Positions 5,535 through 35,225 of a stretch of 44,400 bases of DNA are shown here, one piece after another. Under the pieces are notes generated by a model. The model was not told the origin of the DNA. It saw nothing but the letters and a program-made list of their open reading frames with translations, and made no database searches. The stretch comes from a virus. Numbering within the stretch: the stretch's first letter is position 1; each line of letters opens with the position of its first letter. The stretch is from IMG/VR virus record IMGVR_UViG_3300042887_004374, positions 1 through 44,400 of that record. One strand, 5' to 3'. The position numbers were made by a program, and so were the translations under genes.

Positions 5535-7211
5535 TCAGCCGACCATGTCTTGTATGACAACAATGCCATACATGTCAGGACGTACCATCTTCTTAGCGTA
5601 ACGGGTCATAACGCCCTTACGTGGTACGAAGTCTTCAGTACCAAAGATGGTTGGTGTAACTTGGAGTGGGACATATGGAGCATATACGAATCCACTTTCG
5701 AGGAAACTACTGCCCTTACGGCCTACAAGAACAACGTTACGTAGGAAATATGGATCAACGAATACATCCCATTTCTTACTGATTGAACCGGCTTTGACTG
5801 CGCCGATTGTGCCCTTGGCATCATCATGAACTACGTTTGCACGGAATCCGCTGGTGAATTCAAGGATGTTAGCAACTTCTGGGCCACAAACAACAAAGTT
5901 TGCGCCGCCACGAAGCGTCTTACGGTGGATAGCAGCACTTACATCGTTGATTGTTTCAACGAGTGTTTCGTACCACATACTGACGTTACCGGTAAAGTCA
6001 GCGCCAAGTAGTGATTCATTTGCTACGCCACTGGCAATTGGTAAGCCAGTTGTACGATCAAGGAACTTACCTGGACGACGTGACCAGTATAGTGTTGCAG
6101 CAGTTGCACCACGGACAAGTTCACCTAGCATTTCTTGGTCAATTTCAAGACCAATTTGTTCTGATAGGATACTTGTGAGTTCAACTTCGGCATCAAGATT
6201 GTGATAAGCATTTAGATCTTGACCGAGTTCTGGCGTCCACTTGGCTTTGAGTTTGCGACTCTTAGCAGTTACAGCGACACTGTCAACTTTGATGTCAATT
6301 TCTGGAATTTCTGTTTCACCTTCTAGAGTGACACTAACTGCTGCGATACTACCGAGTGGTGAAGTACCGGCACCTAGTTGATCACGTAGTGGCCAAGTTA
6401 ATGCACGATTACCAGTTGCAAGACTTGCTGCACCGGTACCAACAACAACTAGACGAACGTGTGTAAATGATTCGCCAGCCATAAACGCGCCATTAACATC
6501 GCTTTGTGCTGATAGACGACGAACTAGTGAACCACTTTCAAACGTACCTGAAATAGCGATTAAGTTACTGCGATCAAGATTTGTTAATAGTGATGTATTA
6601 ACAACAAATACCGCAACTTCTGAACCGGAAACAATATCCATATCATATCTGCAGGCTTTGTCGATTGCTGAATTGCCAGTGCTAAACGTGCCACTATCTT
6701 TAAGAACACAAGAAGCAGTTGGATTTGAACCGGTTGCTAGTGAGTAACCGTTGTTTAGAGCACGGAGGGAATTTTCAGCATTTAGACCACTGAGATCAAC
6801 ACCGCCCGTGAGTTGGCTGGCTACACGACCACCACCGAATAGTGAACTACCACTTACTGCACCTGAACGAGTACGATCAAACGTAAAGTCAAGGAAGAAG
6901 ATGAGACCACTTGGTAAACTCATTGGCTGTACGCTAACGAGTTCGTTAGCAATTAAGCTACCGAAAACGCGGCGGACAATTGGAAATGCAACTGCAGCGA
7001 AACCTTCAACATCACCTCCTGACATTGTGTTCGCTTCACGTAGTAATTCTTGAGCTTGACTTTCAAGTAGGCGGGCCATCGTTGCTTTCGCACGATCATC
7101 GCCAATACCTTCTAATAGACCTGTGTCTGACCATTTACTTAATAGAGCACTGCCTTCTTTTTCAAGGTCGCGCTTTATAATACCTTCTGTTAATTTTTTG
7201 ATGACTGACAT
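5535..7211 (-). CDS. 23: Major capsid protein, T4 gp23-like
   Basis: This is the HK97-fold subunit of the head lattice; 558 residues (T4 gp23 521). The block EGFAAVAFPIVRRVFGSLIA then ELVSVQPMSLPSG (about 69-102) matches the T4 block containing MVRRAIPNLIAFDICGVQPM. The KAKWTPELGQDLNAYH segment (about 323) is another conserved gp23 block, as is the C-terminal RYAKKMVRPDMYGIVV. By family precedent the N-terminus is removed by the prohead protease. The likely site is LRE|A at residues 59/60, close to residue 65 in T4 gp23. AGGAG lies before the ATG. A hairpin overlaps the end of the scaffold gene upstream and a strong terminator follows downstream, so capsid mRNA could be made as a discrete abundant transcript. 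Confidence 0.96.
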   Translation of the reverse strand: MSVIKKLTEGIIKRDLEKEGSALLSKWSDTGLLEGIGDDRAKATMARLLESQAQELLREANTMSGGDVEGFAAVAFPIVRRVFGSLIANELVSVQPMSLPSGLIFFLDFTFDRTRSGAVSGSSLFGGGRVASQLTGGVDLSGLNAENSLRALNNGYSLATGSNPTASCVLKDSGTFSTGNSAIDKACRYDMDIVSGSEVAVFVVNTSLLTNLDRSNLIAISGTFESGSLVRRLSAQSDVNGAFMAGESFTHVRLVVVGTGAASLATGNRALTWPLRDQLGAGTSPLGSIAAVSVTLEGETEIPEIDIKVDSVAVTAKSRKLKAKWTPELGQDLNAYHNLDAEVELTSILSEQIGLEIDQEMLGELVRGATAATLYWSRRPGKFLDRTTGLPIASGVANESLLGADFTGNVSMWYETLVETINDVSAAIHRKTLRGGANFVVCGPEVANILEFTSGFRANVVHDDAKGTIGAVKAGSISKKWDVFVDPYFLRNVVLVGRKGSSFLESGFVYAPYVPLQVTPTIFGTEDFVPRKGVMTRYAKKMVRPDMYGIVVIQDMVG

Positions 7212-7239: not shown

Positions 7240-8550
<1,311 letters not shown>

Positions 8551-11911: not shown

Positions 11912-12115
11912 TCAATCCTCTTTTGGAGCATTGGCTTTTTCTTTTTCTAACGCTCTTTCTTTTGCGCGTCTTGTTGTATGTTTTATTTGTGAAGGCTTTA
12001 AATAATATTTACGATCATAACAATCTTCAATAATTCTCATCTTTTTTGTTTTCTTTAAAAAACGCTTGATCATCTTTTCCACGTTACCATCAACTTCATC
12101 TAAACTTACTTTCAT
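11912..12115 (-). CDS. rpsU: Ribosomal protein bS21 homologue
   Basis: This small basic protein of 67 residues has the architecture of bacterial bS21 (71 residues in E. coli). Its order is xVExMIKRFLKKTKK, then MRIIEDCYDRKYYLKPS, then a basic tail TTRRAKERALEKEKA. This mirrors the FDVALRRFKRSCEKAG, EVRRREFYEKPTT and basic C-terminal helix of the host protein. bS21 binds the 30S platform near the anti-Shine-Dalgarno end of 16S rRNA. Phage copies are known in several aquatic phage groups and are thought to bias host ribosomes towards phage mRNAs (known; function here inferred). GAGG precedes the ATG. It is the last gene of the head-assembly operon, so it should be made late. The 12-residue acidic-ended tail differs from host versions. 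Confidence 0.87.
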   Translation of the reverse strand: MKVSLDEVDGNVEKMIKRFLKKTKKMRIIEDCYDRKYYLKPSQIKHTTRRAKERALEKEKANAPKED

Positions 12116-12130
12116 TTTTTCCTCGTAATG

Positions 12131-12598
12131 TCAAATGACATTAAATTTCTTTCTACCAAATATTTTACTTATATCAACACCGGGATCGTTTGGCGATACT
12201 CCACCCAATGGGTTTGCTATACTTTCTTGAACATTTGCTGGAGCGGGTTTTGTATCTTTAAATACATCTACTCCACCAACCTTAAAAGACATGGACTTAT
12301 TCATTTCTGAATTTTGTTTCTTAAATTCACTCGTTAGTTCGTCTCTGTCTCTTTTTAATTGTTCCAATAATTCATTGTTTTGTGGCACTTTTGTCTGCCT
12401 AGATTGTAATTGAACCGGTTGTACATTAGTTTGTGCTGATTTATTTGATGCTTCCGTGATCATCGGAAGGGCACCTTTCATTACTTCTTTTATAACTGCA
12501 GATAATAAACCGCTTTCAAGAAGAATTTCTTGCACACTCTCCTCAACACATTCTTTTACAATTGGTTTAATTAGATCTTTTAATTCACTCTTTTTCAT
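12131..12598 (-). CDS. Hypothetical head-cluster protein with a helical N-terminal motif
   Basis: The function of this 155-residue protein is unknown. It begins MKKSELKDLIKPIVKECVEE, an amphipathic helix that recalls, without the exact cleavage spacing, the N-terminal signal of three other proteins in this window. The middle (about 60-75) is Q/N-rich. A predicted coiled coil follows (LLEQLKRDRDELTSEFKKQ, about 80-98), and the C-terminus is P/G-rich, ending GRKKFNVI. The start overlaps the stop of the prohead protease gene by one base (TAATG), so it is translationally coupled. The context argues for a prohead core or internal head component (inference); no catalytic motif is visible. Confidence 0.75.
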   Translation of the reverse strand: MKKSELKDLIKPIVKECVEESVQEILLESGLLSAVIKEVMKGALPMITEASNKSAQTNVQPVQLQSRQTKVPQNNELLEQLKRDRDELTSEFKKQNSEMNKSMSFKVGGVDVFKDTKPAPANVQESIANPLGGVSPNDPGVDISKIFGRKKFNVI

Positions 12599-13200
12599 TA
12601 ATCACCTATTATGTCATTCAAAAGACGATTGATTCTATCAGATTTGTTGAAAATGTTTGGTGTTTTTTTGCTTTCGGAAAGACCCATGAATGCTCCGACC
12701 GTTGAAGGCTCGCTAACGAAATCAAAACAAATAAGCTGGAAATCGTCTTCAACATAAGTTAATCCAGCTTTTTCTTTTACACTTCCAAGACCGCGACTTG
12801 AAATGCCCAACTTAACTCCACTCTCAACAAGCGATTTAAGAATTTGGCCTGATGGGGTTGTTAATATTTTAACCTTACCCATTACGTCTTTGCCATTCCA
12901 CCAAATATCTGTAACAATATGAGAAGCGTTCTTTAAATTGATTACAGACTCGTCTGGATGATCAAGCTCTCCAAGTGCACGATTTTCTGCAACGAGCTTC
13001 TTATAGTTTTCTACTTCGCGACGAAGGATGTTTTCAGGGTATACCCGTCCGTTACCATTCTTGGCATCAGCTCTTTGCATGACACCGGTAAGCATCATGC
13101 CACCACTTTTAACAAATGATTTTTCTGCTTCTGTTAATAAGTCTTGACAAACACCACCTTCGCAGAGTTCAAAATACTCTCTCAATAAAAACTTATTCAT
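12598..13200 (-). CDS. 21: Prohead core protease, T4 gp21-like
   Basis: This is the maturation protease that digests scaffold and trims capsid and internal proteins before DNA packaging; 200 residues. The sequence gives LTGVMQRADAKNGNGRVYP (about 38-55), the conserved start of the fold. GELDHP at 78-82 carries the likely catalytic His81. DIWWNG and GKVKILTTPSGQ follow. GISSRGLGSVKEK (132-144) carries the likely nucleophile Ser134 or Ser135. DDFQLICFDFVSEPSTVGAF contains the aspartates expected near the active site. All blocks match T4 gp21 closely. A possible self-cleavage site LTE|A lies at residues 22-25. Its start overlaps the upstream gene by ATGA. It stands immediately downstream of two proteins that carry candidate cleavage signals. 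Confidence 0.95.
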   Translation of the reverse strand: MNKFLLREYFELCEGGVCQDLLTEAEKSFVKSGGMMLTGVMQRADAKNGNGRVYPENILRREVENYKKLVAENRALGELDHPDESVINLKNASHIVTDIWWNGKDVMGKVKILTTPSGQILKSLVESGVKLGISSRGLGSVKEKAGLTYVEDDFQLICFDFVSEPSTVGAFMGLSESKKTPNIFNKSDRINRLLNDIIGD

Positions 13201-14231
13201 ATTTTGACTCCGGGTTTTGTATATCTTTTCCAGTTATTATAAAAATTATCGTAAGATTTAGATTCTTGCTGTAGCTGTGATTCAAGATTATCTAAATCTT
13301 GTGGATTTCGGATTGCAGGATCATTTGTGTGTAATAGTTTGTTATATAATCTTGTACTTATTGCTAATCTTCCTTGTTTAAACAAAGTGGTTATTACATA
13401 TTCTACTATATTTTGAGGTATTCTGCCACTAAAATATTTTTTAGTAGTAATAATTAAACTATTTATATACCAAGGTTCAAGTCCGACCTGCTGATAAGAA
13501 GGCATTTTTTCTCTTTCTTCTTTTATATCTTTTGTAATTGGACCAATTGTTGAATTTTGTAAAACTCGCTTTGTACCTACAAGGTGTTTTAAAACCGTAT
13601 TAATATTGTTTAAAGTTTCTTTTTTTTGTGATGTATTTAACGACTTGAAACGTTGATCGTTGATAAAATCTCTTTCTACCTCTTGTCTCAACAGAGAAAA
13701 AGACTCGTCTATTGTTGAACGTAAAAGATCTCCATAATCTTGAACTACGCCTATTCTTTCGGGCGCAGGCAATTGTTTTGGTAAATTACCCGGTGGCAAG
13801 TCTCCAGAAGATTTAACGTCTTGCGGTGCTGAGTCAGTTGGCTGTCCTGTGCCTAATTGTTTTGGTTGATTAACTGAATAACTTGAACCAAATGGTGCGT
13901 CTTTATAATCAGCAGGTTGCTCTGCATCAGAATCAGATGTTTGCATACCCTGAGATGCGTTGCGCCGCACCAGACCAACACCAGGTTCTATTTCTGGTTC
14001 TGGTTGTATTGGTTGTTTTTGCGGAACTTTATATCTCGCAAATGCACGACCAACACCTTGAGAGGCGTTTGGTTTTGGCTTGCCAGACATAAAATCTGTG
14101 GCCTTGTTATAAAGTCCCTTACCAATACCCTTTAAGGCACTTAAAAGCTTTTCATCAATCTCTTCTTCGTTGACGAGATTGGCAAATTCTTCTTTTATAA
14201 TTTGTTTTAACTGTTGTTTGGTAAGGGACAT
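13197..14231 (-). CDS. Candidate internal head protein with capsid-targeting-like N-terminus
   Basis: I do not recognise a family for this 344-residue protein. It starts MSLTKQQLKQIIKEEFANL, with L8, I11-I12 and E14-E15 at the same positions as in two other proteins of the window. IKE|E fits the (L/I)-x-E rule of T4 prohead protease sites. Residues about 45-165 are low complexity and P/Q/G/S-rich, with a repeated NASQG element. Residues 165-344 are mostly helical, with DLLRSTIDESFSLLRQEVER and an aromatic LEPWYINSLIITTKKYF segment. The gene lies between portal and protease, where T4 has the prohead core genes 67 and 68. I infer a scaffold-core or ejected internal protein. The ATG is 5 bases after the upstream stop. 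Confidence 0.72.
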   Translation of the reverse strand: MSLTKQQLKQIIKEEFANLVNEEEIDEKLLSALKGIGKGLYNKATDFMSGKPKPNASQGVGRAFARYKVPQKQPIQPEPEIEPGVGLVRRNASQGMQTSDSDAEQPADYKDAPFGSSYSVNQPKQLGTGQPTDSAPQDVKSSGDLPPGNLPKQLPAPERIGVVQDYGDLLRSTIDESFSLLRQEVERDFINDQRFKSLNTSQKKETLNNINTVLKHLVGTKRVLQNSTIGPITKDIKEEREKMPSYQQVGLEPWYINSLIITTKKYFSGRIPQNIVEYVITTLFKQGRLAISTRLYNKLLHTNDPAIRNPQDLDNLESQLQQESKSYDNFYNNWKRYTKPGVKI

Positions 14232-14236
14232 TTATA

Positions 14237-14791
14237 TCACTCTTGCTCGTCTTCTTTCATAGCACGTGCTGGTCTTATAGGTGCTGGTTTACGAGGATCA
14301 CCAGCTACGAATCCTTCTGGCCCTTGACCTGCTGGAAGTGGTTGTGATTTTTTACCACCGTGAAATAATGCAGATCTTGCAGTCTTTAGTTGTTGCAGCA
14401 CCATCGGAAGATCTAATCCTGCTTCTTTAGCTGGCATGTTTAAAGCTTTCATCTTTAGTATCAAAGTATTTAAAGATTCAACCGCGCCTGTTACTTGCTT
14501 GAGAGCAGTTTTAATAACTGCTTCAACATCACTTCCGGTTTTGACCGTTTCAGCAGCAAGTTTTGCGTCTTGTCTAGCTTTTTCAGCTTCTTCATCGGCT
14601 TTTTTGCTTGCTTCTTTAGCTGCACTTATTGCGCCGCCAACTCCAGAAGCTGCTGTTTTTGCAACACCACTAATACCGGTGCCTAATGATTTAAAAAAAT
14701 CTCCAACACCTTCATCAACTTCGCCAGTTTCCTGCATTGATTGTAATTCTTCTTGTATTATTTTTTGTAACTTTTCTTTTGTGATTTTCAT
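14237..14791 (-). CDS. Candidate internal head protein with capsid-targeting-like N-terminus, Ala/Lys-rich
   Basis: This 184-residue protein begins MKITKEKLQKIIQEELQSM, with IQE|E in the same register as its neighbours. A Gly-rich patch (about 30-55) and an Ala/Lys/Glu helix (KEASKKADEEAEKARQDAKL, about 60-80) follow. Then comes a leucine-rich helical segment near 95-145, and the protein ends P/K-rich and basic-acidic. The sequence is helical and simple, with no enzyme motif. It resembles the general type of T4 internal and core proteins rather than a specific family. The start codon overlaps the stop of the upstream 42-codon ORF by ATGA. With the next gene it forms a pair just before the prohead protease. 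Confidence 0.74.
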   Translation of the reverse strand: MKITKEKLQKIIQEELQSMQETGEVDEGVGDFFKSLGTGISGVAKTAASGVGGAISAAKEASKKADEEAEKARQDAKLAAETVKTGSDVEAVIKTALKQVTGAVESLNTLILKMKALNMPAKEAGLDLPMVLQQLKTARSALFHGGKKSQPLPAGQGPEGFVAGDPRKPAPIRPARAMKEDEQE

Positions 14792-14916
14792 TTTGTAGAT
14801 TCCTTTAAAGATAGAAGTGCGGGCATTACCCGCACGATATGGCTACCTTTACAGCAGCGCCTCGAATTAGTTTGCGGAAGAAACCACTTGCGAATATTGC
14901 GATCTATTAATTTCAT
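14788..14916 (-). CDS. Possible 42-codon small gene, frame uncertain
   Basis: The ATG at 14916 has GAGGTG 6-8 bases upstream. A TATTTAT promoter-like motif ends 26 bases upstream, the same spacing as at three other genes. Its stop overlaps the next start by ATGA. The predicted product starts MKLIDRNIRKWF and then becomes Cys/Arg-rich and less protein-like. In the +1 frame after the TGGTTTCTT stretch the DNA reads FFRKLIRGAAVKVAISCG and stops at TAA, which looks more like a real C-terminus. So either the gene has an indel or frameshift near 14881, or only the first dozen residues matter. A 7-bp hairpin at 14817-14835 lies inside it. Transcription start and SD are well supported, the product less so. 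Confidence 0.45.
   Translation of the reverse strand: MKLIDRNIRKWFLPQTNSRRCCKGSHIVRVMPALLSLKESTK
14817..14835 (-). promoter_or_regulatory. GC-rich hairpin 26 bases before the 184-residue head gene
   Basis: GTGCGGG-TAATG-CCCGCAC is a perfect 7-bp GC-rich stem with a 5-base loop. No T-run follows. It lies just past the alternative-frame TAA stop of the small ORF, so it may stabilise or regulate the mRNA in front of the internal-head-protein genes (inference). Confidence 0.4.
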
Positions 14917-14934
14917 ATATACACCTCGTACTTT

Positions 14935-14942
14935 ATAAATAT
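14935..14942 (-). promoter_or_regulatory. Candidate late promoter before the small ORF at 14916
   Basis: The minus strand reads ATATTTATAAAG, a one-base variant of CTATTTATAAA. Its 5' base lies 26 bases before the ATG at 14916, identical spacing to the motifs before genes starting at 32835, 40839 and 42870. Confidence 0.45.
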
Positions 14943-14949
14943 TCTCTAA

Positions 14950-15261
14950 TTAGCGTTTGTTCTTTAAATTTAACATAATTCCTTCATCGTTGAAGCTTTT
15001 ATCTAAAATATAACTGCACAAAGAAGAAATTAAAGAGAAAACAAACATACCAATATAAAAATTCGGGAATAAACAAACATCAGAATACCAAAACAACACA
15101 AACATCAGATAACCAACATGGAATCCAGTACACATGCTGCAACTGAATAATTCCCCGAGGAAGCCAGCTTTTGGTCTAAACCAATTAAGTATACTGGCGT
15201 AACACAATATCTGCGTTAAGCCAGCACAACTTAATATAAAAATTAACAGTTTATCCATCAC
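14950..15261 (-). CDS. Small integral membrane protein with a CxxCxGFHVG motif
   Basis: This 103-residue protein has three likely membrane helices. The first is near residues 5-25 (LLIFILSCAGLTQILCYASI). The second follows the motif (VGYLMFVLFWY, about 49-60). The third is near 68-88 (FYIGMFVFSLISSLCSYIL). Between the first and second is SCSMCTGFHVG, close to the CxxCxGFWVG signature of the DUF1360-type membrane proteins seen in phages and bacteria (recognised from memory, not searched). The role is unknown; the two cysteines could bind metal or form a disulphide. It overlaps the upstream gene by ATGA, so it is co-translated with head-assembly genes, which is odd for a membrane protein. It could anchor prohead assembly at the host membrane, where T4 proheads are built (speculation). 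Confidence 0.75.
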   Translation of the reverse strand: MMDKLLIFILSCAGLTQILCYASILNWFRPKAGFLGELFSCSMCTGFHVGYLMFVLFWYSDVCLFPNFYIGMFVFSLISSLCSYILDKSFNDEGIMLNLKNKR

Positions 15262-15839
15262 ATACCATAAGCATAACGACGAACCTGATGAATTGGAACT
15301 GAGCCTTTTTCTGGCGCAGCGGCAACATTGCCGAGTTCTGTGCTGTCTTTTTCATCTGGTTCTGTAACTCTATCAGTATAGATATCGTCAACTGCTTTCT
15401 GATAAATGAATGATGGTTTCTCTTGTTCAATCCATTTTGAAATAATCATTAACAGTAACTCATCAATTGGTATTTCTTGCGGAGAGCTTAGAATTTTACA
15501 TTCTAATGAACCATAAACATTACTACCAGCAATACTATCCGGCATTATGATTCCTTTTTTAACAAGGTATTTCATTAGCCGATCTTGTGTTTGATAAATG
15601 TGATCGTCAAAATTCTCTTTTGAAAAAGCAATTAATTTCTTTTTTTCTGGCATTATAACAATATCAATATCGGGGTGGTCTGAAATGATAAAATCTCCAG
15701 CAAGAGTTGTTCTTACTTTTAATTTAATTGTAAAAATTTGTTTTGGCTTTTCTTTTTCTTGGGGTGCATTAAAATCTTCACCACCAGCTTGATCTGGCTG
15801 CGGATCTTCATCTACAATCTTGACATTGATATCAGCCAT
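15258..15839 (-). CDS. Conserved-looking hypothetical protein between portal and protease
   Basis: This 193-residue protein has no function I recognise. It has an acidic start (VDEDPQPDQAGGEDFNAP) and a predicted beta-rich middle (FTIKLKVRTTLAGDFIISDH, then IDIVIMPEKKKLIAFS). A helical section LMKYLVKKGIIMPD follows. The C-terminal segment ISKWIEQEKPSFIYQ is followed by a flexible tail ending VRRYAYGM. No signal peptide, membrane helix or catalytic motif is visible. It overlaps the upstream gene by 8 bases and the downstream membrane-protein gene by ATGA, so the three are translated as a unit. Its place suggests a virion or assembly protein (inference). Confidence 0.75.
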   Translation of the reverse strand: MADINVKIVDEDPQPDQAGGEDFNAPQEKEKPKQIFTIKLKVRTTLAGDFIISDHPDIDIVIMPEKKKLIAFSKENFDDHIYQTQDRLMKYLVKKGIIMPDSIAGSNVYGSLECKILSSPQEIPIDELLLMIISKWIEQEKPSFIYQKAVDDIYTDRVTEPDEKDSTELGNVAAAPEKGSVPIHQVRRYAYGM

Positions 15840-16698
15840 CTTTATTTGTTTCCTCTGAGTTTATTTCTTTGACGAGGCTTTGTATCTTTAATATTTCTTG
15901 AACCATTTGCTGATCAATGTTTCTTTTGTTGTATCCTTCTATTTTTTTCAGAACAACATTTGTTTTTTCATTTAAGAACTTGTTTTCAACTATTTGTTTT
16001 GTTTTTAATGAATGATTTAGAGATACTTTTATTCTTTCTATTTCTTCATTTAAGAATAGTTTAAATTCAATACCACTGTCTGCAAAACTCATAACATATT
16101 TTGTCAGTAATTCTTTTTGTTCAGATAATAAAGAGTCGGTATATTGTTCATTAAATTTCTTAACGAATACCTTGTAAGTTAAGGCGTCAAGAGTTTGTAG
16201 TTTTTCCATTTCAGCATTTTCTGGGGAGGAGATCATTTTTGCGAGAACGGTACTTTCTAATAAGACTTTTTCTTTAAGAGTAACAGTGTTGTTAAAGATT
16301 TGAGAAATGGTAGCCAAATTTTTGTAATCAGGAACAAATGTATTGAAAATTTTACCATTTGAAAATTTATTTAAAATATTAATTAACTTTGTTTGTTCGT
16401 TAAAAATCTTATTTTTATCCAAAAGTTCATATTGATACTTGGCTTCATTTAATAATTTATCTGCAAGATTTTGTGGCATCTCGTATGATTCGTTTATTGC
16501 TTTATAAAGTTCTAATTCTTTTTTTAACGTTAAATTTTTTGAGAAGAATGACTTACAGACATTAACAAGAAATTTTTTATTCTGTTCATTTTTTTCTAAT
16601 AATGAATTTGTTATTTCACGAAGAATCACTTCATACAGAAAAGCCGTGTTTCTTTTCTTGTTATGTTTATTTTTCATCACTTTGTTTCCTTGTTGCAT
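15832..16698 (-). CDS. Hypothetical helical protein encoded next to the portal
   Basis: This lysine-rich, almost entirely helical protein has up to 288 residues and unknown function. Recognisable blocks are KKRNTAFLYEVILREITNSL near the start, a middle rich in Asn/Lys helices, and a C-terminal helix ending LVKEINSEETNKDG. Two starts are possible. The first is the ATG at 16698, with GGAG 7 bases upstream, overlapping the portal gene by 32 bases. The second is the ATG at 16677, with AGGAA upstream, giving 281 residues and an overlap of 11 bases. Because RNTAFLYE looks like the beginning of the conserved part, either start gives the full domain. The context suggests an assembly factor or core protein linked to the portal (inference). 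Confidence 0.74.
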   Translation of the reverse strand: MQQGNKVMKNKHNKKRNTAFLYEVILREITNSLLEKNEQNKKFLVNVCKSFFSKNLTLKKELELYKAINESYEMPQNLADKLLNEAKYQYELLDKNKIFNEQTKLINILNKFSNGKIFNTFVPDYKNLATISQIFNNTVTLKEKVLLESTVLAKMISSPENAEMEKLQTLDALTYKVFVKKFNEQYTDSLLSEQKELLTKYVMSFADSGIEFKLFLNEEIERIKVSLNHSLKTKQIVENKFLNEKTNVVLKKIEGYNKRNIDQQMVQEILKIQSLVKEINSEETNKDG

Positions 16699-18769
16699 TT
16701 TTCTTCTCCAGAGAACTTAATAATTTTTTCAAACTATCATTATTTGTCATGATTTTTTCTTCAATTAAGTTTTCATTCTTTTCATCAGATAACTCAGTAA
16801 TCATTTGTTCATTGTAATTATTTTCATAATCTTCGTAAATACCATTACCTAGACTAAATAAGTTTTGTGTTCCACTTCCCCAAACATTTCTCTCTGATCC
16901 GCCACCTAATTCTTTATTAAACTTAGATTGATAGCTTCTTGTTCTTGCTCCACTTGGTCTCTTGTCGCCACCACTATATTTGACTGGAAGGTATGTTTTT
17001 CCACGTGAGGCTGGAGTTGAGGTTAAGCGATCATCTCGTTTTCCGGGAGCTGCTAATAATGGACTTTCTTTTCCTCCTGTTGGAGTTTCTGTCGGTGCTG
17101 CGGCTTCTCCGGGTGCACCTGCTGCTCCAGCACCACCTTCTGGTTCTCCAGAAATAGCACTAAGGTCTATTCCTCCTGCATCTGCTCCAGCATCGCCAGA
17201 TGATTCTAATCCAGTTGGTCCACCTGATAATCCTGTATCTTGTTCTCCGGCAGCAGCTTGAGCTTCTGTACCAGCTTTTTCAACAGCTGCTTTAAATTTA
17301 AAGTCAAAGAACATTTCACGTTGATTACGCAGAAATTCTTCATCGGACATACCAAAGATTTTCTTGGCAACCCAACGCTTGCTGAAGTAACCTTCAGTCG
17401 CAGCAGTAGCAACATCAAATTTAGTTTTCCAAGTTTCAAGTTCTTGTAGTTCGGCAATCTTACTTGGATTATTTAATCTTAATTTAAACTTTATAAGATC
17501 TTCGTTTCTATAACCAAGAACGAAAAGATGAATGATACCAATTTTTTCTAATTCACTAACAAGTGATCTTTGAAGACGTTGAACTGTTCTAGAAAAGCGA
17601 ATATCTTTTTGAGCAAGAGTTGTTTTATCTTCTTCACCACCTTCACCACGCGTAAGATATGATTGTGGAATCTTGATAGCAGAAAATAATTTATCACGCA
17701 AATATTTAACGTCCTCAATATCGCCAGTGTATTGACCACCAGCAAGACTTTCAATCTTTGTAGATTGTTGCCCACGAACCGGGATAAAATAGTCTTCTTC
17801 AATTGAAAGCGGATTATAACGCAAATCAACACGACCGGTTTTTTCATCAACAACTTGGTTACGCTTTAAGGCAGTCATTGCTTTTTGCATGAATTGTTCT
17901 ACATCATTTGGAGCAACGTTGCCGACGTCAACATAAAATACTCGTCTTTCGGCAGAACGAACAATACGATATGCCATCATGGCGTCTTCTAGAAGGGTTA
18001 ATTGACGCCAAATACGGCGGGCTGCTTCAAGCATAGAGGTGCCGTATGGAGCATATTTATCATTTCCAAGAATACGGAAATGGCCCATTTGCCAGTTTTC
18101 AAACGTCATGCCACCGCTATTCCATTGGAATTGAACATAATTTGGGTTCTTTTCATCTTCACCTTCAATACGCTCAACTTCATATGGAGGAATACCTATT
18201 GCATTCTTAATTCCATCTTTGTCGTCAATATCAAGATAAAGGAAAAAATCGCCAAACTTGCACATTGTTCTTGACCAGCCGAAAAGATTAAATTCAATAT
18301 TTAAAATATCGTAATAAAGACCATTAAGAATATTTTTAATTTCTTCATTTGGGCAATCAATTGTTAGTACTTTTTCTAATGAATTACTTGTAGTCATTTC
18401 ATCGGCATAAATATCAAGTGCTGATGCAATTTCTGGGGTGTATTCCATTTGTTCAAAGTCAACATACCTTTCGGCGCGGTTTTGATTTGCCATACTTTGT
18501 GATTGAACAAAGTCAAATGGATTATATGAAGATTTTTTAAACTGCTGTCCTTGCGCAGATTGAAATTTATATTTATCTAATCGGCGGCGGCGTTCGCTCT
18601 TATAATTTTGTTGCCGACGATTAACGATTGGACCAGAAAACAACTTCGTCAATCTCTTGAATAGAGAGTTGTCAGGGTTGTAAGGACTACGATCTTGTTT
18701 TATTTGACCTCTTTTAGAGGGCGTCATGTTTCTGTAGTCGCTTTTGTTTGTTGGTTTGTTGTCTGCCAT
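16667..18769 (-). CDS. 20: Portal vertex protein, T4 gp20-like
   Basis: This is the dodecameric ring at one head vertex through which DNA is pumped and the tail attaches. It has 700 residues against 524 in T4. Family blocks are YTPEIASALDIYADEMTT (about 108-125), FGWSRTMCKFGDFFLYLD and the IRRxERRVFYVDVGN-type segment (here IVRSAERRVFYVDVGNVAP). EEDYFIPVRGQQSTKIESL and KYLRDKLFSAIKIPQSYL follow. Residues about 505-640 are a Gly/Ala/Glu/Pro-rich extension (LSGGPTGLESSGDAGADAGG onward) not present in T4 gp20. The end is acidic and helical. The extension is probably disordered and could contact core proteins or a jumbo-head-specific partner (inference). The start is 4 bases after the terminase stop. 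Confidence 0.95.
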   Translation of the reverse strand: MADNKPTNKSDYRNMTPSKRGQIKQDRSPYNPDNSLFKRLTKLFSGPIVNRRQQNYKSERRRRLDKYKFQSAQGQQFKKSSYNPFDFVQSQSMANQNRAERYVDFEQMEYTPEIASALDIYADEMTTSNSLEKVLTIDCPNEEIKNILNGLYYDILNIEFNLFGWSRTMCKFGDFFLYLDIDDKDGIKNAIGIPPYEVERIEGEDEKNPNYVQFQWNSGGMTFENWQMGHFRILGNDKYAPYGTSMLEAARRIWRQLTLLEDAMMAYRIVRSAERRVFYVDVGNVAPNDVEQFMQKAMTALKRNQVVDEKTGRVDLRYNPLSIEEDYFIPVRGQQSTKIESLAGGQYTGDIEDVKYLRDKLFSAIKIPQSYLTRGEGGEEDKTTLAQKDIRFSRTVQRLQRSLVSELEKIGIIHLFVLGYRNEDLIKFKLRLNNPSKIAELQELETWKTKFDVATAATEGYFSKRWVAKKIFGMSDEEFLRNQREMFFDFKFKAAVEKAGTEAQAAAGEQDTGLSGGPTGLESSGDAGADAGGIDLSAISGEPEGGAGAAGAPGEAAAPTETPTGGKESPLLAAPGKRDDRLTSTPASRGKTYLPVKYSGGDKRPSGARTRSYQSKFNKELGGGSERNVWGSGTQNLFSLGNGIYEDYENNYNEQMITELSDEKNENLIEEKIMTNNDSLKKLLSSLEKKNATRKQSDEK

Positions 18770-18773
18770 TTAT

Positions 18774-20372
18774 TTATCCCTTGTAAAGCCAATCATACAT
18801 TTTATAAAATTCTTTTAATTCCGTTGTATTAACACGTTGTTTGTCTAACGAATAATTTTTATTATACCCGATCTGACCTGGAATTTTAGTTTGAACTCTT
18901 GTGTTCGCCATGGTTATAGCATTAAACATCGCCTTTGTATACTCAACATCTCTCTGAGATGTTGTTAATGCTGTGTCTCGTACCCAGCAAGCAATAGCTA
19001 AAGACATTGTCAAATCGTCATTTCTTCCCCTCATTGCTTCGGGTCTTCCATTGTTCCATATAAAAGTTGACAACTCTTCTACTAGACGATTTGAGTATGT
19101 TTTAATTATTTTATTTCTAATAAACTCTTCAAGTTTTGCAACAATAAGTGGACGAGTCTTTTGCGTCGTGGTAAAACCAGGAACACTATTATTCATAGAC
19201 TCTGCTTGAACTTGTTCTACGTATTCATGAGTTGATTTTACTGAATAATAAAGATTTGGATATCTTCTTTCAATCAATTTCTCTAATACGTTAAAACCAA
19301 TATTGTTATTTTCAACAACAAGTAATGCGTTATTGTATTCTTTGCCGGTTTGCAACAACATGTCTGCATAAATATCCGGAGATAGTTTTCCTTGATATTC
19401 AGCGACTTGTTCCATTGTTTCTAGTTTAATGATATGAAATCCAGAATAATCTTTACCATCGCCTCTAGCAACGTCGGCGACCATCAAATATGTAAATTCT
19501 GCTCTAGCTTCTTCCCATATCCAATAATTTCTATCAAAACCGGTACGATATTTTGGCTCTAAAACATTTTTTCTTATTTCTTCAAGATCTTGAGAATTAA
19601 TGACACCTTCACCGGATGCATTAAAAGAACATTCATATTCTTGTGCAATATCTCGCCTATTCATGTTACGAGTAGCAGATTCAAACCATTCACGATCTCG
19701 GTCTGGGTGGGAATCCCAGTTTAATTTAATAGCGCGAAAATCGTTTGAATTGTTCTCAGCGTTTGTATATGTTTCGTGAAACCAATTACCGACACCATTT
19801 GGTGTTGAAATGGCTATACAACGACCACCGGCTGATAGTGTGGGGAATATACTTTTCCATAGTTCTTCCATGCCGTCAACGAATGCAGCTTCGTCAATTA
19901 CAAGCAAACTGAGAGCTTCTGAACGACCAGCACTTTCACTGGTTGAAGATGCCTTAATCCATGAACCATTGTTTAATTCAAAGCTGTTTCTATTGTCTAT
20001 ACTGATTTCAGCAATACGTAGCCAATCTGGTACGTTCTTTATCATCTTTTTAACTTTTTTAACAAGATTGGCAGCAACGTCAAGTTTTGTTGCAACAACA
20101 AGAACGCTTTTTTGACGACGGAAAAGAAGCATCCAGGCAATATAACCTGCGACAGCTGTTGATAAACCTAACTGGCGAGCTTTAAGAACTATATTAAAGC
20201 GATAATCTTCAAAATCCTTTATGGTATCTTGTTGATAGCCATAAAGAGAAAAAGGGATGGTTCCCTTTTCTGGATGTGTAATTTTACAAAAATTGGTGAT
20301 AAAGTATATGGGGTCTTTGCCGCATCTTTTTACTTCATCTACTACTTGTGCCTTTGTGAGTCCATAATTCAT
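18774..20372 (-). CDS. 17: Terminase large subunit, T4 gp17-like
   Basis: This is the ATP-driven packaging motor and headful nuclease; 532 residues (T4 610). The ATPase part shows a YGYQQDTIKDFE adenine-type motif (44-55). A Walker A variant KARQLGLST lies at 64-72, Walker B LLVIDEAAF at 156-164 and the coupling motif STPNG at 189-193. The nuclease part has VADVARGDGKDYSGFH (D300, D305 and D308), VVENNNIG with E354, and GRNDDLTMSLAIA late in the protein (about 463-475), the usual acidic triad of the RNase H-like fold. All catalytic motifs look intact. It is followed by the portal, as gene 20 follows 17 at some distance in T4. No small terminase is recognisable in the window. Confidence 0.96.
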   Translation of the reverse strand: MNYGLTKAQVVDEVKRCGKDPIYFITNFCKITHPEKGTIPFSLYGYQQDTIKDFEDYRFNIVLKARQLGLSTAVAGYIAWMLLFRRQKSVLVVATKLDVAANLVKKVKKMIKNVPDWLRIAEISIDNRNSFELNNGSWIKASSTSESAGRSEALSLLVIDEAAFVDGMEELWKSIFPTLSAGGRCIAISTPNGVGNWFHETYTNAENNSNDFRAIKLNWDSHPDRDREWFESATRNMNRRDIAQEYECSFNASGEGVINSQDLEEIRKNVLEPKYRTGFDRNYWIWEEARAEFTYLMVADVARGDGKDYSGFHIIKLETMEQVAEYQGKLSPDIYADMLLQTGKEYNNALLVVENNNIGFNVLEKLIERRYPNLYYSVKSTHEYVEQVQAESMNNSVPGFTTTQKTRPLIVAKLEEFIRNKIIKTYSNRLVEELSTFIWNNGRPEAMRGRNDDLTMSLAIACWVRDTALTTSQRDVEYTKAMFNAITMANTRVQTKIPGQIGYNKNYSLDKQRVNTTELKEFYKMYDWLYKG

Positions 20373-20375
20373 ATA

Positions 20376-20678
20376 TCATCTTATTCGAATTTCTAGCTTG
20401 TCATGTTTTGGAACAACAACTTTTTTATCTTTTGGATTGATTAGAAGATCTTCTTCTGTTGTTTCTTCTTCCAATTCACCAGCTGCAGCTTTATTGAGAA
20501 CATCTTTTGGATTTTTTACATTTCCATTTTTATCTGTTGGAACAGGTTCTTCTGTCGCTGAAGCATTAAGATCTTCTAATTCTTTTAATTCTACTTCATC
20601 TAATTCTAAAGTATTTTTTTCATGAAGTTCAACTTCTTCGCGAATTATTTGCAATAAACGTGATTTGTTTATTTTCAT
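20376..20678 (-). CDS. Small acidic protein with capsid-targeting-like N-terminus
   Basis: This 100-residue protein begins MKINKSRLLQIIREEVELHE; L8, I11-I12 and E14-E15 align exactly with two other head-cluster proteins, and IRE|E fits the prohead protease rule. The rest is very acidic (ELDEVELKELEDLNASATEE, later AAAGELEEETTEEDLL) and ends basic (HDKLEIRIR). It looks largely disordered and has no enzyme motif. It overlaps the upstream gene by ATGA and ends 3 bases before the terminase start. I considered a small-terminase role from its position, but the acidic composition and lack of a DNA-binding motif do not support it. A scaffold or internal head role is the better inference. Confidence 0.72.
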   Translation of the reverse strand: MKINKSRLLQIIREEVELHEKNTLELDEVELKELEDLNASATEEPVPTDKNGNVKNPKDVLNKAAAGELEEETTEEDLLINPKDKKVVVPKHDKLEIRIR

Positions 20679-32882: not shown

Positions 32883-34034
32883 CTATGACCAGCTAATAAC
32901 CCAAATTTCTCCACGAACACCATTACCACCGGCACCAGATATATTACCTACATTTATACCTGTTGAACTAGCGCCACCTCCACCTCCACCACCGGGAAAG
33001 CCACCGGGACCACCGGGAAAACCGCGTGCATTTACATCTTGTGTTTGTGTTCCGCCACCACCACCACCAGAACCACAAAAACCAAGAGTATTTAATTTAC
33101 CATTGCCATTAGAACCACTAGCTCCCGGTGTACCATCAACTGCAGTACCGTTTGTACCGGCAGCACCACCGGTACCAGCCGTGTAGGATCCGCAAGAACC
33201 ACCTGCCCTTGGTAAAATATTACCCATACCCCCTCCCTGACCACCACCGCCCGCACCATATATTGATGAACCGCCTAGTCGACTAGTCGGGTCTTGACCA
33301 CCACCACCACCACCGCCGAATTCTGCACTACCACCATTTGTTGCTATAGAACCTTGACCACCCGCACCTGCAATCGATGTAGTGGTAAGTGTCGTAGTAC
33401 TTCCCGGTATGCCACCTGCTACGGCAGTATTAGTTGTACCTTGTTGACCATTACCATGTGTTCCACCACCTCCACCACCGGAAGTATTAGTAGATACAAC
33501 GTTGGTTCCGAAACAACCACCACCTCCACCACCGGCTCGGATGTAAGAACCAAAAGAAGAAGATTCACCAGAACCTCCTATTAATCCGGCTGTAGCAACT
33601 GTACCCGGTCTTGCTGGCCCTCCAGTTCCTCCGTTTCCAACGTATAATGATTCGGTGGCAGCCAATTGACTTGAAGGTATTATTAGGGTATTTATTGCTC
33701 CACCACCTCCACCTCCACCGCCCCTTCTTATAGTACTTACAAGATTACCTACAATATTACAAGCTCCACTTCCACCACCGCCGCCACCACCAACACAAAC
33801 TATCATAGTGAACTTTGGATCAAATGTAGTTGGCTTTACCCATTGACCAGCGCCAACTGTTGTAAATTGCTGAATATCAAAAGTATCTTTACTTGAACTA
33901 ACAACGTCAACGACAAAATTAGTTATAATTGAAGATGTTATGCCGGTAATACCTTCTCCACTACCGGTGAACGAAGAAGTTATAGTAGTTGCGATTAAAG
34001 AACCAGTTACTGAAGTATTTTGAAATTGAGACAT
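32883..34034 (-). CDS. Poly-glycine tail-fibre adhesin, copy B
   Basis: This 383-residue protein is built for receptor binding. The N-terminus (QNTSVTGSLIATTITSSFTG) and the first about 85 residues are nearly the same as in the neighbouring copy A. They are a docking and shaft module ending with FDPKFTMIVCVGGGG. From about residue 80 to 370 it consists of Gly runs (up to eight) alternating with short variable loops, such as GNGGTGGPARPGTVATAG and AGGGGGGCFGTN. The end is GAGGNGVRGEIWVISWS. Arrays of Gly-rich segments form a packed polyglycine-II sandwich in T-even adhesins such as S16 gp38, where the loops bind the receptor (known). Cysteines in the loops are unusual. It was probably produced by tandem duplication and then loop divergence. 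Confidence 0.8.
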   Translation of the reverse strand: MSQFQNTSVTGSLIATTITSSFTGSGEGITGITSSIITNFVVDVVSSSKDTFDIQQFTTVGAGQWVKPTTFDPKFTMIVCVGGGGGGGSGACNIVGNLVSTIRRGGGGGGGGAINTLIIPSSQLAATESLYVGNGGTGGPARPGTVATAGLIGGSGESSSFGSYIRAGGGGGGCFGTNVVSTNTSGGGGGGTHGNGQQGTTNTAVAGGIPGSTTTLTTTSIAGAGGQGSIATNGGSAEFGGGGGGGQDPTSRLGGSSIYGAGGGGQGGGMGNILPRAGGSCGSYTAGTGGAAGTNGTAVDGTPGASGSNGNGKLNTLGFCGSGGGGGGTQTQDVNARGFPGGPGGFPGGGGGGGASSTGINVGNISGAGGNGVRGEIWVISWS

Positions 34035-34058
34035 TTTATTCGCCTTTAAAGTTTTTTA

Positions 34059-35225
34059 TCAAGCCCAACTAATAACCCAAATTTCTCCACGACCACCATT
34101 TCCACCGGCACCAGATGGATTTCCAATACCACCTGTTCCACAAGCACCTCCACCACCTCCACCACCGGGAATTCCACCGGGACCACCTGACAAACCGGCA
34201 AATACAACGTTATTGGTCATTGTTGCTCCACCACCACCCCCACTGCCACAAAATCCGGTAGATTTAATTTTGCCATTACCATTTGAACCAGAACCGGCTG
34301 CGCTAGCACTACCACTTGCTCCTACACCGGCTGCTCCACCGTTACCAGCGGTGTAAGAACCACAAGAACCACCAGCAGATGCTACTACATAAGTGGTGCC
34401 GGGATTATAAGAACCACCATTACCACCAGCACCACCACCATATATAGATGAGCCTCCAGCAATACTTACTGCTGCGGCAGTATGTCCACCACCACCGGCA
34501 CCACCATATTCAGCACAGCCGCCATTTGTTGCTATTGAACCTAAGCCACCACATCCACCTAAAGAAGAAATAGAAAGAATAGTAGTACTTCCTGGTGTAC
34601 CACCTGCCACAGCAGCGGTTGAACCTAGTGTACCATTACCAAATATACCTCCACCGCCACCGCCACTTCCCGCTCCAGCCGAGGTGACTTGTCCAAAATA
34701 TCCACCGCCACCACCACCGGCACGAATTAAAGAACCGAAAGACGAAGACTCTCCATTGCTACCAATAATACCGGCAGTTGTAGCAGTATTTATGGCAGCA
34801 CTTCCTGAACCGCCTCTACCAACATATAGTGATTCAGTGGCAGCTAATTGACTTGAAGGTATTATTAAGGTATTTATTGCCCCTGCACCACCACCTGCAC
34901 CGCCTAATCTTATTGCTCCTGCTGCACCATTAGCACCACTTCCACCGCCACCACCTGCACCAACACATATAACCATTGTCATTTTAGGATCAAACGATCC
35001 AGATACAAGTGCACTTGGTTTAACCCAAGAACCTGAACCAGTTACTGTGAATTGCTGTATATTAAAAGCAGTATTATTGGCTCCTATAACATCTCTGACG
35101 AAATTAATAATATTTGAAGCAGTTACATTGGTTAAATTGAAGCCGTCTCCACTAAAGCCTGCAGAAGCAGTTATAGAAGTTGCTATTAATGTTCCTGTTA
35201 CTGAGGTGCTTTGTAGTTGAGCCAT
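34059..35225 (-). CDS. Poly-glycine tail-fibre adhesin, copy A
   Basis: This 388-residue protein is a paralogue of the adjacent gene. Both start M-x-Q-x-Q-x-TSVTGxLIATxIT, both contain INTLIIPSSQLAATESLYVG, and both end GRGEIWVISWA or a one- to two-residue variant. The inner Gly segments align, but the loops between them differ (for example AAINTATTAGIIGSNGES here). The FDPKMTMVICVGAGGGGGSG entry marks the beginning of the Gly-rich domain near residue 85. The start overlaps the stop of the S74 fibre gene by one base, so the adhesins may bind to that fibre, as gp38 binds gp37 in T-even phages (inference). Two alternative adhesins would broaden host range. Confidence 0.8.
   Translation of the reverse strand: MAQLQSTSVTGTLIATSITASAGFSGDGFNLTNVTASNIINFVRDVIGANNTAFNIQQFTVTGSGSWVKPSALVSGSFDPKMTMVICVGAGGGGGSGANGAAGAIRLGGAGGGAGAINTLIIPSSQLAATESLYVGRGGSGSAAINTATTAGIIGSNGESSSFGSLIRAGGGGGGYFGQVTSAGAGSGGGGGGIFGNGTLGSTAAVAGGTPGSTTILSISSLGGCGGLGSIATNGGCAEYGGAGGGGHTAAAVSIAGGSSIYGGGAGGNGGSYNPGTTYVVASAGGSCGSYTAGNGGAAGVGASGSASAAGSGSNGNGKIKSTGFCGSGGGGGATMTNNVVFAGLSGGPGGIPGGGGGGGACGTGGIGNPSGAGGNGGRGEIWVISWA

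Follow-up and report, generated by a model that had tools for sequence, protein, structure and literature searches.

A short N-terminal tag shared by unrelated proteins of a T4-like phage, and by hundreds of proteins of environmental phages, most likely directs them into the phage head

We analyzed a 44,400-nucleotide stretch of an IMG/VR virus record (IMGVR_UViG_3300042887_004374, positions 1 to 44,400; hereafter the window), in which a head gene cluster includes a prohead protease of the T4 gp21 family (Peptidase_S77; Pfam, 1.4e-30, 106.8 bits against a family cut-off of 27; PHROG 207) and a Gp23-family major capsid protein (Pfam, 3.1e-69). Three proteins of the window, starting at 20678, 14791 and 14231, begin with the same short tag, which we call class A. 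The gene at 20678 lies just upstream of the terminase, while the other two lie just upstream of the protease. The features relevant here are as follows.

20634..20678, minus strand: class A tag (residues 1-15, MKINKSRLLQIIREE) of the 100-aa protein encoded at 20376-20678.
20376..20633, minus strand: body of the 20678 protein, upstream of the terminase, without a Pfam or PHROG match; candidate cut LDE28|V29 (codons 20603-20592) or LHE20|K21.
14747..14791, minus strand: class A tag (residues 1-15, MKITKEKLQKIIQEE) of the 184-aa protein encoded at 14237-14791.
14708..14719, minus strand: predicted protease site VDE27|G28 in the 14791 protein.
14187..14231, minus strand: class A tag (residues 1-15, MSLTKQQLKQIIKEE) of the 344-aa protein encoded at 13197-14231.
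14148..14159, minus strand: predicted protease site IDE27|K28 in the 14231 protein, with VNE22|E23 as an alternative.
12554..12598, minus strand: looser tag MKKSELKDLIKPIVK of the 155-aa protein directly after the protease, followed by LLE28|S and ITE49|A.
12598..13200, minus strand: prohead protease, Peptidase_S77, with conserved pro-segment sites LCE14|G and LTE24|A.
5535..7211, minus strand: major capsid protein, Gp23 family, with predicted pro-segment end LLRE|ANT.

A preliminary description of this DNA, made from the sequence alone, had stated that residues L8, I11, I12, E14 and E15 coincide in the three protein starts while the remainder of the proteins is unrelated, and that a looser version starts the protein at 12598. 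This observation is confirmed. Of 42 genes in the window, these are the only three matching x7-L-x2-I-I-x-E-E, and shuffling the first 40 residues of all genes 2,000 times gave no match at all. The bodies of the three proteins fall into separate homology clusters. The looser start at 12598 (MKKSELKDLIKPIVKECVEE) is likewise real, and in relatives the gene directly after the protease often carries the perfect tag, e.g., MQLTTARLKQIIKEEL or MTLTKDVLKRIIKEEL. Elsewhere in the window, a ribosomal protein S21 gene (11912-12115; Pfam, 2.4e-08) sits in the head cluster on the same strand as its neighbors, unlike the phage clades of PMC9723584, in which it is on the opposite strand. EF-hand-like loops occur in the scaffold-like protein at 7240-8550 (DLNKDGKLSSYEE) and in relatives of the 20678 protein (DADSNKDGKLSKKE), hinting at calcium binding in head proteins, and two adjacent glycine-rich paralogous proteins with near-identical starts (10 of 14 residues) lie at 32883-35225 in a long array of tail-fiber-like ORFs.

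We then set out to determine how widely the tag is spread. Eighty viral loci with a related protease held 78 ORFs beginning with the motif, and a degenerate DNA pattern for MK[ILVM][TS]KxxLxxIIxEE matched at least 120 rows in IMG/VR. In contrast, the same pattern one base short, serving as an out-of-frame control, found none in IMG/VR and 3 hits in a genome collection. In all, 373 proteins with the tag (consensus MKITKxQLKQIIKEELxxLLxE) fell into 236 clusters with unrelated bodies, although the regular expression is slightly loose and a few of these are false positives, including one DnaB hit (MQLLIQIIREDLKGEH). The tag was found in 0 of 395 genomes of a single bacterial phylum, that of a Saprospiraceae MAG, on which its absence from cellular genomes rests, and in 0 of 54 random viral contigs of 30 kb or more. 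Many contigs carry several tagged genes in tandem, and one 288-kb contig carries about 40 tag-like ORFs. We also considered whether the tag marks only head-cluster genes, but this was rejected, since in contig G007 (288 kb; loci L225-L239) all 22 class A-like genes lie at least 69 kb from the protease, as T4 ipII and ipIII lie about 37 kb from gene 21. At about 31-60 kb of this contig there is a run of roughly 30 small genes carrying class A or class C tags (class C is described below), possibly an expanded cargo locus. Other sequence searches were less informative: a search with a guessed DNA string found nothing, a 20-residue tblastn query against named phages was too short to score, and a DNA search with one tag gave chance hits.

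To assess whether selection acts on the peptide or on the DNA, we compared 279 pairs of tagged genes that share a contig but have unrelated bodies. DNA identity was 78% within the tag, but only 32% in the 30 bases upstream and 28% in the bodies, while 34% of same-residue codons in the tag differed, compared to 59% for random same-residue codons. The peptide is therefore what is kept, with some copying of tag DNA between genes. In the 20678 family, the tag was 80-100% identical in 13 relatives while the bodies were 13-57% identical. In the 14791 family, M1, K2, L8, I12, E14, E15 and L16 were invariant in 15 relatives, and in the 14231 family M1, I11, I12, E14 and E15 were invariant in 8 relatives.

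We next examined the association with the gp21-type protease, an enrichment test that had been proposed beforehand. S77 was detected in 21 of 30 class A contigs and in 27 of 38 contigs carrying two further tag classes (see below), i.e., in 48 of 68 tagged contigs, compared to 1 of 22 and 6 of 32, i.e., 7 of 54, random contigs (Fisher p = 7e-11). Length and lineage confound this link, however, and when only contigs of at least 100 kb were considered, the figures were 28/30 against 5/9 (p = 0.018). Conversely, 20 of the 68 tagged contigs lack a detectable S77. Eight of the nine S77-negative class A contigs also lack Gp23 and may be fragments, but one, of 125 kb, has a T4-like terminase.

Since gp21 cuts after L/I-x-E (PMC9026906), we investigated where such sites fall relative to the tag. 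In 196 class A cluster representatives, [LIVM]xE occurred within 22 residues after the helix in 161, compared to 59 of 196 in protein bodies and 89 ± 6 in shuffles; with A, G or S as the next residue, the numbers were 75, against 10 and 23 ± 4, respectively. Glutamate peaked at position 22. In the same phages, the capsid pro-segment ends in L[LIV]xE followed mostly by A or S, and the protease has a strongly conserved N-terminal pro-segment (LLREYFELCE|GGVCQDLLTE) with two gp21-type sites; 75 of 84 distinct relatives of the protease have such a site in the first 38 residues, suggesting self-cleavage. In the window, the downstream site is clear in the 14791 protein, where E24 and E27 are nearly invariant in the family (consensus GE[LIV][DE]E|[GA]) and a low-confidence AlphaFold model breaks between helices 5-21 and 27-38. 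It is plausible in the 14231 protein, where EEIDE is kept in most relatives and IDE|A occurs in one, whereas in the 20678 family it is not clearly conserved. The AlphaFold models (mean pLDDT 46-48) were too weak for a fold search, and an argument from helix amphipathicity was dropped for class A because its hydrophobic moment is not above that of shuffles.

The cultured Flavobacterium phage vB_FspM_immuto (MW353175), a relative, carries class A-like tags (MKKSELVKLIKEEL, MKKSQLREIIRKEL, MKKSQLRQIIKEAL) and, between 102 and 119 kb, a second kind of tag, which we call class B (FDLKKFLVENKLTxNS in this phage; FDLKKFLxENKLTxNS as a class). Class B, which is unrelated to class A, likewise matched at least 120 rows in IMG/VR, heads 53 unrelated body groups and has the same design, being followed by [LIVM]xE in 52 of 53, compared to 3 of 52 in bodies. 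A third kind, class C (MKxLRxYIRxLLxE), ends in its own L-x-E at about position 14, with no further site, and heads 33 body groups. Pfam and PHROGs name almost none of the bodies, but a few tagged proteins are enzymes, such as a zeta-type kinase and a HAD-type phosphatase whose domains begin within some 10-20 residues of the class C tag, and a NUDIX protein. Enzyme-like proteins whose domain begins soon after a tag-like helix ending in LxE were seen in the loci we label L081 (9857-10456, 5'-nucleotidase), L449 (597-1142, HAD phosphatase) and L227 (3682-4416, zeta-type kinase).

We consider it likely that the shared N-terminus is a capsid-targeting sequence of a T4-like phage group. In this view, a helix of about 15 residues (class A, MKITKxQLKQIIKEE) would dock the protein on the scaffold core of the growing prohead, the gp21-type protease would then cut the tag off at an L/I-x-E site just after the helix, usually at residues 20-28, and the mature protein would stay in the head and may enter the host with the DNA. 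Our analysis establishes the tag itself, its spread over hundreds of unrelated bodies, its absence from the cellular genomes sampled, its association with the S77 protease, its conservation at the peptide level and a selected downstream protease-type site. Docking on the scaffold, packaging, cleavage and ejection are, in contrast, inferred by analogy with T4, where the leader sends proteins into the scaffold core and is removed by gp21 (PMC9026906, PMC3012670), and we found no virion proteomics for any tagged phage. The preliminary description had proposed IRE|E, IQE|E and IKE|E as the sites at which the protease encoded at 12598-13200 cuts these proteins, which would be packaged in the head and perhaps ejected, with the motif a general signal for phage internal proteins in this group. 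Its interpretation is partly supported: a general, modular N-terminal tag, tied to phages with a gp21-type protease and resembling the T4 sequence in design, is borne out by sequence evidence, whereas the cut at E14|E15 is probably wrong.

Several other readings were weighed. Cleavage after E14 with no downstream site in use is unlikely but not excluded: L/I-x-E is enough for gp21, E14 is invariant, the residue after the cut is loosely constrained, class C tags end in LxE at about the same position, and several cuts per propeptide are known in other phages (PMC5694885). However, if E14 were the only cut, a downstream [LIVM]xE followed by A, G or S would not be enriched, and E15 is nearly invariant, whereas the residue after the cut in the capsid and protease pro-segments of these phages is mostly A, S or G. 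It is also unlikely that the tag is a head-assembly docking helix that is not removed, or a general protein–protein docking helix for another late process. The helix is indeed more conserved than the cut site, and most tagged bodies have no known function, but a protease-type site follows it far more often than in bodies, in class A and almost always in class B, and tagged contigs are enriched for S77.

We regard as very unlikely a signal acting in DNA or RNA, for example a translation enhancer, or a copied DNA repeat without function in the protein. Although the similarity of tag codons indicates some copying between genes, a third of same-residue codons differ, upstream DNA is unconserved and the reading frame is always that of the ORF start. 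Least likely is chance or shared ancestry of the whole proteins; small phage proteins diverge fast, so distant paralogy of the bodies cannot be fully excluded, but this reading is contradicted by the absence of matches in 2,000 shuffles and by the 236 body clusters, some with quite different enzyme folds.

Among described systems, the T4 capsid-targeting sequence is the closest. There too, a short N-terminal leader ending in an L/I-x-E-type site is all that is shared by otherwise unrelated internal proteins, in a phage with a gp21-type protease (PMC3012670, PMC12373910), and accessory genes may lie away from the protease gene. However, the T4 leader is 10 residues long (MKTYQEFIAE|A), while the tag described here is about 20-28 residues, has an unrelated sequence and has a helix separate from the cut site; packaging is proven for T4 only. 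We therefore do not class the tag as the T4 leader itself, only as working like it. In the phiKZ-like giant phage SPN3US, N-terminal propeptides are removed by a diverged gp21 relative, the paralogues gp53 and gp54 have identical first 15 residues, and two propeptides are short, at 20 and 24 residues (PMC5694885, PMC10052503). Those propeptides are mostly 111-254 residues long, however, with the motif A/S-x-E, and no recurrent tag over many unrelated bodies is described in the text consulted. In phage P1, the N-terminal 30 residues of DarB are sufficient to send a reporter into the head (PMC9024508), but P1 appears to lack a separate T4-like scaffolding system, and its tag sequence is unrelated as far as described. 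No paper describing the present tags was found in a literature search that did not extend to most subscription papers.

A broader reading, which we judge about as likely as not, is that environmental T4-like phages, including very large ones, use a modular address-label system with at least three unrelated N-terminal tag classes (A, B and C), all carrying or preceding an S77-type site and heading hundreds of mostly unknown accessory proteins, a few of them enzymes (NUDIX, zeta-type kinase, HAD, GNAT), that are packaged and injected. If so, the tag would list the injected set of any such genome from sequence alone. In T4-like phages, recognizing the shared leader identified many internal proteins, and work on the three of T4 has tied them to anti-restriction functions (PMC12373910). 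A tag that marks hundreds of unknown proteins in uncultivated phages would allow candidate packaged and injected proteins to be listed from sequence alone, would point to a packaging signal usable in other phage groups, and makes the question of what these phages inject into bacteria directly testable.
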